Source: Planococcus shenhongbingii (lineage in GTDB: Bacteria; Bacillota; Bacilli; Bacillales_A; Planococcaceae). Taken from it: 64,000 nucleotides of DNA. Below, one piece after another: positions 48,028 through 54,667 of the stretch (the stretch's first letter is position 1; every line of letters begins with the position of its first letter). The stretch covers positions 2,728,001-2,792,000 of the forward strand of contig NZ_CP129235.1 of assembly GCF_030413635.1 (NCBI RefSeq), written 5' to 3'. The position numbers and the translations under genes are program-made. The notes below the pieces were generated by a model. It did not search any database, was not told where the DNA came from, and saw only the letters and a list, made by a program, of their open reading frames with translations.

Positions 48028-48609
48028 ATGACAAAAGAACTTGAAATTGAATTTAAAAACATGCTGACCCGAGAAGAGTATAAACGGCTTCTTACGCATT
48101 TCCATTTAGCAGCGGACGATGTAAAAACCCAGGAAAACTACTATTTTGATACAGCGGATTTCAAACTGAAAGAAGCTAAATCCGCTCTTCGCATACGAAA
48201 AAAGCTGGAAAGTTTTGAATGCACATTAAAAATTCCGGCTCCTGAAGGGAATTTCGAAATTACCGATCCGTTAAACGCATTGCAAGCTGAAGCTATAATA
48301 AGTGGCCAATCATTCGAAGCTGCTGAAGTATATGCCGCTCTTCAGAAATTGCAAGTAGAGCCGTCTCAGTTAATAATGATCGGTAAATTAATGACTCACA
48401 GGATTGAGCTCGGCTATAAAGACGGCTTGTTGGTTCTTGATCACTCAGAATATCAGAATACCGCAGACTATGAAGTGGAATTTGAAGTGCAAGATGCTAA
48501 ACTAGGTCAACAGCAATTTTTAGAGTTCTTGCAGCTTCAGAAAATTCCGGTCCGTCCGGCGGATAAAAAAATTGCCCGATTTATGAAAGCGGCTAAATCT
48601 GGAATCTAA
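48028..48609 (+). CDS. yjbK: CYTH domain protein YjbK
   Basis: 193 residues. The CYTH triphosphate-tunnel fold is shown by the N-terminal ExExK motif in LEIEFKN and by alternating charged strands (YYFDTADFKL, SALRIRKKL, FECTLKIPA, YEVEFEV). Relatives are tripolyphosphatases or adenylate cyclases; the Bacillus protein's substrate is uncertain. AGAGAGGTGTTTTC precedes the ATG. Divergent from yjbL. Confidence 0.92.
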   Translation: MTKELEIEFKNMLTREEYKRLLTHFHLAADDVKTQENYYFDTADFKLKEAKSALRIRKKLESFECTLKIPAPEGNFEITDPLNALQAEAIISGQSFEAAEVYAALQKLQVEPSQLIMIGKLMTHRIELGYKDGLLVLDHSEYQNTADYEVEFEVQDAKLGQQQFLEFLQLQKIPVRPADKKIARFMKAAKSGI

Positions 48610-48731: not shown

Positions 48732-49130
48732 ATGACTGGAAAACCAATAATTCCGTACGAAGAAATTGGTGCGGAACGCTTGTCACAGTTAATCGATGCA
48801 TTTTACGCACGAGTGGCCAAGCATCCAAAGCTGCAGCCTATATTCCCTGAGGACCTTACTGAAACCGCTAGAAAGCAAAAACAATTTATGACTCAATATT
48901 TAGGTGGACCTAATATATATTCTGAAGAACATGGACATCCACGGCTTAGAGCACGGCATCATCCTTTTCCAATAACTCCTGATCGTGCACAAGCTTGGCT
49001 GGAGTGCATGAGTGAAGCAATGGATGAGGTTGGATTGGAAGGGAAATTCCGAGAAGTCTTTTTCCAACGGCTTGTTTTGACGGCTCATCATATGGTAAAT
49101 GAGCAAGATAGCGAGGAGGAGTTAGAATGA
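48732..49130 (+). CDS. yjbI: Truncated (group II) hemoglobin YjbI
   Basis: 132 residues, 2-on-2 globin. The proximal helix contains RARHHPFPITPDRAQAWLECM, and the N-terminal helices (FYARVAKHPKLQPIFPEDL) fit group II. In Bacillus it is co-transcribed with yjbH and has been linked to protection from oxidants. AAAGGAGACACAATA precedes the ATG. Its stop overlaps the ATG of the yjbH remnant. Confidence 0.94.
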   Translation: MTGKPIIPYEEIGAERLSQLIDAFYARVAKHPKLQPIFPEDLTETARKQKQFMTQYLGGPNIYSEEHGHPRLRARHHPFPITPDRAQAWLECMSEAMDEVGLEGKFREVFFQRLVLTAHHMVNEQDSEEELE

Positions 49131-49428
49131 ACAATCTGGACTTGGCTCAAGAGACAGAAATGCATGAAAAAACACTGAAGCCAATGGAACTGTATGTTTT
49201 TTTTGACCCTTTAAATCCAGAATGCTGGGAGAAGAGCGGTTAAATCGCCAATCGCCCCCATCATTGAATGAATTATTCTTAAAATATTCTACTCTGGCAA
49301 CCAGAGAAATTGCCTCTATATATAATATTTCTGACCAAACAGCCGAGCGTGAATTGAAAAAGCAAGTGCTTCAGCAAAAACTGGAACGCATCAATTTGCC
49401 TGATCAAACTTTATGGACGTTAAAATAG
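49127..49428 (+). pseudogene. yjbH: yjbH remnant: internal deletion of the Spx-ClpXP adaptor gene
   Basis: The first 35 codons (MNNLDLAQETEM... to MELYVFFDPLNPECW) match the N terminus of YjbH, and a second frame from ATG 49222 to 49428 (MLGEERLNRQSPPSLNELF...LATREIASIYNIS) matches its last ~68 residues. Some 180 middle residues of the DsbA-like adaptor (normally near 300 residues) are missing. The junction, within AATGCTGG at 49221-49228, changes frame, so the N-terminal frame ends at TAA 49241. The start has GGAGGAG upstream and overlaps yjbI. The usual CxxC reads NPEC. YjbH delivers Spx to ClpXP in relatives. Confidence 0.85.
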
Positions 49429-49457
49429 CCTTTCGCTAACGCGAAAGGCTATTTTTA
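49427..49457 (+). terminator. Terminator after the yjbI-yjbH unit
   Basis: GCCTTTCGC TAAC GCGAAAGGC followed by TATTTTT. Confidence 0.88.
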
Positions 49458-49476
49458 TATAATTATAAATTTACTG

Positions 49477-49603
49477 CGCTTTCCTTGTCTAGCTGCAGCG
49501 CCTAACTCCTTGGGTCGTAAGCCACTTCGGCTGTGCGGCTGAAAAAACGCCGCTTCGCCAAATCGTCTTACGCCCGTCGGAGCTGAACAGGCGCTTCCGC
49601 TTT
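49477..49603. repeat. Bacillaceae-type intergenic repeat
   Basis: A GC-rich block begins CTAGCTGCAGCGCCT and ends AGGCGCTTCCGCTTTTCT, with inverted ends (AGCGCCT / AGGCGCT). It strongly resembles the dispersed 'tagctgcagcgcc' elements common between genes in Bacillaceae and Planococcaceae. There is no coding potential. Confidence 0.6.
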
Positions 49604-49611
49604 TCTTTATA

Positions 49612-53940: not shown

Positions 53941-54336
53941 TTAGTTCACCATACGCTGTGCTTCAAGCAACTGATATGCTCGAACTTTGCGAGGAAGGAA
54001 GCGACGAATTTCGTCTTCATTATATCCGACCTGTAAACGTTTTTCATCCATAATAATCGGACGGCGAAGCAAACCAGGATATTCTTGAATTAATTCATAT
54101 AGGCGCTGTAGAGGTAAACTTTCTACATCAACATTTAATTTTTGGAAAATTTTCGAACGTGTTGAGATAATTTCATCTGTGCCGTCTTCTGTCATTCGCA
54201 AGATTTCTTTAATCTCACTGATTGTTAAAGGCTCAGAGAAAATATTGCGTTCTGTATATGGAATTTCATGTTCTTCCAACCATGCTTTTGCTTTGCGGCA
54301 AGAGGTGCAGCTTGGAGAAGTAAATAATGTTACCAT
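53941..54336 (-). CDS. spx: Redox-sensing transcription regulator Spx
   Basis: 131 residues, ArsC-like fold. The redox pair C10-x-x-C13 ([13 protein letters not shown]) is intact, as is [15 protein letters not shown]. Spx binds the RNA polymerase alpha subunit and turns on thiol-stress genes. The start is the second of two ATG codons, giving the exact family N terminus; GGAAGTG lies upstream. In relatives Spx is kept low by ClpXP with the adaptor YjbH, whose gene is broken 5 kb away here. Confidence 0.97.
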
Positions 54337-54667
54337 CATAGTAGAGCACTTCCTTTCGGATTCGGGTTACTTCAAGTAATTATCAAATTAGAATCACTAT
54401 AATGTAGAAGCTTTACATTCATTATACAATATTTGCTTTCAGTTGAATATAGATTCGGTTGAATTTTATAATAAAAGCTTCATAATTGTCACATTTTAGC
54501 TATAAAATGCTACAGCACTTTTATTTTTTTGTATAATTATTTTTACCCTTATACAAGACTTTTAAACCCTCTTCACAAACTTTTTTATTCTCAATTACGA
54601 TTTCTTTTTGAAAATCATTTTTTTCTTTACATTATATAATACGTTTAAAAACCGAAATAGTTACAGA
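54337..54667. promoter_or_regulatory. spx upstream region
   Basis: 330 bases of AT-rich non-coding DNA. One candidate minus-strand promoter is TTGTAT (54424-54429), 17 bases, TACATT (54401-54406), which would give a leader of about 60 bases. The rest shows no clear operator or gene. The stretch may hold more spx promoters, as in Bacillus. Confidence 0.45.

Follow-up and report, generated by a model that had tools for sequence, protein, structure and literature searches.

An internal deletion interrupts yjbH, the gene of the Spx adaptor, in a genome of Planococcus shenhongbingii

The broken yjbH locus

The window analysed here, a stretch of 64,000 nucleotides, occupies positions 2728001-2792000 of a single contig of 3,979,504 bases (C1) in the studied genome (G000). 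Within it, the place directly downstream of yjbI, whose stop codon overlaps the yjbH start (ATGA), is taken by a broken yjbH gene (Table 1). A single open frame of about 265 codons is not found there: 302 nt remain, at 49127-49428, and they are divided between two frames, whereas the intact gene in relatives consists of 265 codons and a stop (798 nt). About 496 nt are thus absent, a length which is not a multiple of three and which shifts the frame; the loss corresponds to 162 codons (486 nt) plus a copy of the repeat at the junction, which accounts for up to 10 nt. A preliminary description of this DNA had proposed that yjbH is broken by an internal deletion while yjbI and spx are intact. Our analysis bears this out, the deletion being frame-shifting and placed at a short direct repeat, and the sequence, the open reading frames and their translation agree with the positions assigned to the remnants, with their different frames and with the junction AATGCTGG at 49221-49228. 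The size of the loss, given there as about 180 codons, is in fact 162 codons (residues 36-197).

Table 1. Features of the yjbI-yjbH region and the spx gene, in window coordinates
Feature	Position	Strand	Basis
yjbI, truncated haemoglobin family, intact	48732..49130	+	ORF; Pfam Bac_globin 109.2 bits
yjbH 5' remnant, 38 codons	49127..49243	+	translation; 35/35 residues identical to P0005
deletion junction, one kept copy of the short direct repeat AATGCTGGGA	49221..49230	+	sequence; equivalent sites of relatives
yjbH 3' remnant, 68-codon ORF, C-terminal winged-helix part, other frame	49222..49428	+	ORF; 68/68 residues identical to P0005
terminator-like hairpin over the yjbH stop, retained	49421..49455	+	fold, 15-pair stem; position read by eye
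spx, expected client, intact	53941..54339	-	NCBIfam PRK01655.1 245 bits, cut-off 123

The 5' remnant, read from the ATG at 49127, encodes the 35 N-terminal residues of YjbH, followed by out-of-frame KSG and a stop; its end is overlapped by the start of the 3' remnant ORF, and no Shine-Dalgarno-like sequence was seen by eye ahead of the ATG of the latter. The hairpin stretch folds at -21.8 kcal/mol, and it was not among the sites listed by a terminator pattern scan. Just downstream of it, at 49480-49610, lies a 131-base intergenic repeat with 52 matching places genome-wide, some of them tandem pairs; a similar stretch also follows yjbH in two relatives (G004 and G007).

Intact YjbH in relatives and the parts lost

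The genus was searched with the intact YjbH of one relative (G013) in 46 genomes, G000 included. One uninterrupted frame covered at least 264 of the 265 query residues in 44 of the 45 other genomes, and G000 returned two YjbH fragments. A yjbI match was present in all 46 genomes, and the two matches abut or overlap in those 44 as well as in G038 (Planococcus sp. 107-1). In the latter, yjbH is read as two overlapping frames round a one-base gap (G038:C1:2309134-2309924; L011, L070), a split which is likely a sequencing error (assembly completeness 94, contamination 5). At the family level (261 genomes including G000, 19 genera, with match coverage known for the matches listed and otherwise the best E per genome), a YjbH match was found in 261 of 261 genomes; the weakest best E, 1.5e-35, belonged to G000, and the next weakest was 1.1e-69. 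Among the matches listed, one TAG occurs inside the YjbH match of G247, an assembly of 640 contigs with completeness 90. Breaks of yjbH are therefore not entirely peculiar to G000, although G038 and G247 are both weaker assemblies. Database homologues are similarly uniform in length, 260-279 aa in 118 of the 120 listed out of 337 found. As the genus, family and database comparisons agree, full-length yjbH is the rule and G000 the exception; a short form common across the genus, a possibility raised in the preliminary description, was not found. A database search with the 68-aa ORF gave one protein of the same length (P0122, identity 74%), which begins at the same internal Met and comes from a 641-base contig; it may be another short form or a piece cut off at the edge of its contig.

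What the deletion removes can be read from the protein of an intact relative. A search with this protein at E up to 0.001 gave one sequence of known structure, that of YjbH in 6ghb/6gho (E 1e-69), which, according to the titles of these entries, was solved with Spx. Its predicted structure (mean pLDDT 77.2, pTM 0.70) resembles YjbH of 6gho with a TM-score of 0.83 and E 7.6e-26. In the model, the lost residues 36-197 take in the greater part of helices 31-50 and 188-199, strands 51-57, 167-171 and 179-183, and the helices between 62 and 154, the last of which we regard as mainly the helical insertion. Judged by this model, most of the thioredoxin fold is gone, together with the helical region between its strands. 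In the consulted text of PMC7253607 the surface that contacts Spx is assigned to elements of both these regions, and of the interface elements described there the remnants retain the first strand and the beginning of the first helix, nothing further. Neither remnant is recognised as Thioredoxin_5 (PF13743): the 5' one scores 12.4 bits, where the cut-off is 27, and the 3' one gives no match. The winged-helix remnant keeps its sequence at 68 of 68 residues, out of frame; its model, with pLDDT 73.1 and pTM 0.47, matches 6ghb weakly (E 0.34).

The preliminary description also saw in the NPEC motif of the 5' remnant, in place of CPEC, a sign that the redox site had been altered before the deletion. 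This was not borne out, since N-x-x-C is the norm of the genus. Of the 31 Planococcus and Planomicrobium loci read, out of 32 named (L078, with its match elsewhere in the locus, was left out), 29 have N at the first motif position, one has S and one has H. In other genera, where 26 of 48 loci were read and the pattern missed 22, we counted CxxA in 12, CxxC in six, CxxS in five and other forms in three. Because of these counts, the lack of one cysteine is to be regarded as usual. In one locus (L092, Planomicrobium sp. YIM 101495) the motif is HEKS, with both cysteine positions changed, and the frame is otherwise full-length. As far as the consulted part of PMC7253607 goes, the YjbH cysteines are dispensable for Spx degradation in Bacillus subtilis and Staphylococcus aureus, and the CXXC motif is required for several YjbH functions in Listeria.

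Origin and age of the deletion

Microhomology between the two ends of the deletion was invoked in the preliminary description on the basis of a shared octamer. This is beyond proof from the joined sequence alone, and the equivalent sites were read in the intact genes of G007, G004 and G013. The sites resembling the junction lie 496 nt apart in these relatives and agree with each other at 9, 7 and 8 of 10 positions, respectively, the stretches of exact agreement being 6, 5 and 6 nt long. Pairs of 10-nt windows agreeing equally well or better numbered 18, 1390 and 200 of 287661 within the respective genes, which suggests that the agreement exceeds chance in each of the three, though for G004 it is only modestly telling. 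Short similar repeat sites at both ends of the deletion are therefore supported, but the full shared octamer was not seen in any of the three relatives. The deletion could have arisen by slipped replication or by microhomology joining between two such sites, and slippage between short direct repeats would be the simplest cause; the length of the repeat in the parent may differ.

Another explanation would be an artefact of sequencing or assembly, in which yjbH is intact in the strain and about 496 nt were dropped during contig building. The evidence is a single contig, and an intact YjbH of P. shenhongbingii (P0005, 265 aa), which could come from the same or a sister strain, is identical at the protein level over the retained codons. 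On the other hand, the junction falls on a short direct repeat, as in real deletions, and the genes around yjbH are intact. For an assembly error, the dropping of some 500 nt at such a short repeat would be unusual. We consider an artefact unlikely.

General decay of the window was not seen either. When the corresponding stretch of G013 was compared with it, 70 of the 87 ORFs predicted there matched the window and 17 did not, being mostly outside the window or extra genes. Alignment over more than 90% was obtained for 59 of the 70, among which five, near the far end, look like paralogue matches. The remaining 11 include yjbH and one ORF (42959) with an over-extended start, the latter assessed from 30 loci (L035-L064). 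Judged from the table alone, one of the other nine runs over the edge of the window and another matches a paralogue; the remainder are short frames, or frames whose start is likely over-extended, and two of them, 14607 and 57277, also match in pieces, 57277 being upstream of the complete window ORF 48028-48609.

The comparison with P0005, made at the protein level, also bears on the age of the event. Identity extends to 35 of 35 and 68 of 68 retained residues, and because no amino-acid change separates the 103 retained codons from the intact protein, the loss looks very recent. The YjbH of Planococcus sp. 1R117A (P0004) shows a single residue difference across the retained parts; for orientation, CoiA, also encoded in the window, shares 95% identity with its counterpart in Planococcus sp. 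1R117A and 59% with the one in P. glaciei. Relative to G007, G004 and G013, synonymous differences number 23, 23 and 30 in the 68 codons of the 3' remnant and 6, 7 and 7 in the 35 codons of the 5' remnant; non-synonymous differences number 4, 5 and 4 in the former and 8, 8 and 8 in the latter. The high non-synonymous share in the 5' remnant was considered as a mark of decay and rejected, because these residues are shared by the intact P0005. That the 3' ORF has stayed open without change is explained equally by a very young pseudogene or by function. Taken together, we favour, with a probability of roughly 0.8, a recent loss-of-function deletion of yjbH confined to the G000 strain or to a very shallow lineage.

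It may be asked whether such a recent deletion was a chance passenger or whether selection, either during culture or through an antimicrobial, favoured the loss of yjbH, a proposal compatible with recent deletion. Stops in yjbH or the loss of one residue were found in selected S. aureus clones, according to the sections consulted of PMC3124529, PMC11481878 and PMC7235819; however, nothing in the G000 sequence points to selection, which we regard as a tentative possibility. A yjbH pseudogene in S. aureus RN4220, suggested by a search listing, turned out to be a false lead, as the accessible text of PMC10620731 gives only a missense change.

Expected effect on Spx and candidate substitutes

Spx of G000 is 100% identical over 131 aa to Spx of G004, G007 and G013, all of which have intact yjbH, and a compensating change in Spx was rejected on account of this identity. 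Loss of ClpX or ClpP was rejected as well, both being full-length and encoded in open frames that score above the cut-offs of their models. Spx is unchanged, and the sequence thus displays no downstream consequence of the yjbH deletion. In one other genome (G028:C13:2175214-2175602) it is spx that is read in two frames (residues 1-66 and 64-131), with yjbH intact, owing to a sequencing error or to a true break.

Without YjbH, Spx would be delivered to ClpXP more slowly; its level at rest would then be higher, and thiol-stress genes would be more active. A null allele with stabilised Spx is the likeliest result by analogy, and raised Spx in G000 would be a reasonable extrapolation from other bacteria. 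In S. aureus, as far as the excerpted text of PMC3124529 tells, a nonsense mutation in yjbH made Spx detectable where previously it was not. YjbH recognises Spx at its C-terminal end, as stated in a portion of PMC7016130. The literature search found no paper covering both Planococcus and YjbH, and the role of YjbH in Planococcus consequently rests on other genera. Altered antibiotic tolerance, proposed in the preliminary description, would not be safe to assume: in the excerpts concerned, neither the teicoplanin nor the vancomycin MIC of S. aureus changed when yjbH carried the stop and nothing else (PMC3124529), whereas the MIC of one biotin-ligase inhibitor rose on disruption of the gene (PMC7235819).

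The preliminary description further allowed for a full yjbH copy elsewhere or for another adaptor. A genome search with intact YjbH matched the two remnants and a paralogue of 25% identity (L001), nothing else. The corresponding search with PF13743 gave four places over the cut-off, two of them only with neighbours in frame, and L001 alone covered the whole profile; the others (L002-L004) scored 24-31 bits, and none matched when intact YjbH was the query. L001 (L001:1387-2316, equal to G000:C1:1793469-1794398, with the YjbH match at 1793583-1794173) encodes a DsbA-like protein of 309 aa with a CSHC motif.

It could be supposed that this distant relative of YjbH took over as Spx adaptor and that the loss of yjbH was then of little effect. 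L001 does match YjbH of 6ghb with E 1.7e-31 over its residues 30-275 and PF13743 with 98.1 bits, but the identity to YjbH is low, and the gene adjoins TetR-like and monooxygenase-like genes (names given by eye). A secondary YjbH match was also present in 12 other genomes of the genus. Among the 11 fetched (G031 was left out), the L001 homologue is open and full-length in eight, not fully open in two and missing in one, and yjbH is intact in all 11 except G038. A stand-in would be expected in genomes that have lost yjbH and not in those that keep it, a pattern which was not observed; since its homologues sit alongside intact yjbH in relatives, L001 was not gained as a yjbH replacement. Takeover by L001 is accordingly quite unlikely, although the two proteins may have some functional overlap; of the claim of another adaptor, what stands is the presence of a distant paralogue. 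Wider still is the proposal that the lineage lives without YjbH through a rewired circuit, with Spx turnover passed to L001 or to direct recognition by ClpXP, and we find it very improbable. In two genomes the L001 homologues (L188 in G027 and L189 in G033) match about 250 residues in a frame that is not fully open, and they are possibly broken. L001 is patchy in the genus, and with its neighbours it is, by eye, possibly part of a thiol or electrophile stress operon.

The remaining proposal concerns the 68-aa winged-helix ORF, whose translation might be coupled to that of the short frame before it and whose product might either keep partial YjbH function or compete. The ORF is complete, without change from the intact protein, and starts within the end of the upstream frame; P0122, if not a contig-edge piece, would offer a parallel for the internal start. 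Against this, no ribosome-binding-like sequence was seen by eye ahead of the ORF, the Spx interface, as described in the consulted part of PMC7253607, is gone from it, the structural model of the fragment is only moderate in both scores given above, and the long form prevails in the genus. A functional 68-aa product is, in our opinion, extremely improbable.

We therefore return to the loss of function. G000 carries what looks like a real natural knockout of a well-known adaptor gene, yjbH (spxH), ordinary as an event and not a new kind of system. If real, it affects a gene seemingly near-universal in the family, with an intact, near-identical relative for comparison, and such a strain pair would let the effects of constitutive Spx be tested in a non-model Planococcus; as a reference genome, G000 may carry a stress-regulation defect.

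Among known systems, the locus corresponds to that of the YjbH/SpxH adaptor of ClpXP in Bacillus, Geobacillus, Staphylococcus and Listeria, with which it shares the order yjbI-yjbH, and the protein of intact Planococcus relatives is like the Geobacillus YjbH chains of 6ghb/6gho in both sequence and fold. G000 differs in keeping the ends only, in two frames, without a complete thioredoxin domain or helical insertion. The DsbA-like paralogue L001 belongs with YjbH to the Pfam family PF13743 and has a CxxC motif, but departs from it in sequence, in neighbourhood and in its co-occurrence with intact yjbH. A parallel is also offered by the selected yjbH alleles of S. aureus, K23stop in the cited portion of PMC3124529 and stops at residues 72, 97 and 105 in that of PMC11481878, in which the adaptor is lost as in G000; those are point changes under drug selection, whereas the G000 allele is a 496-nt deletion in another genus.
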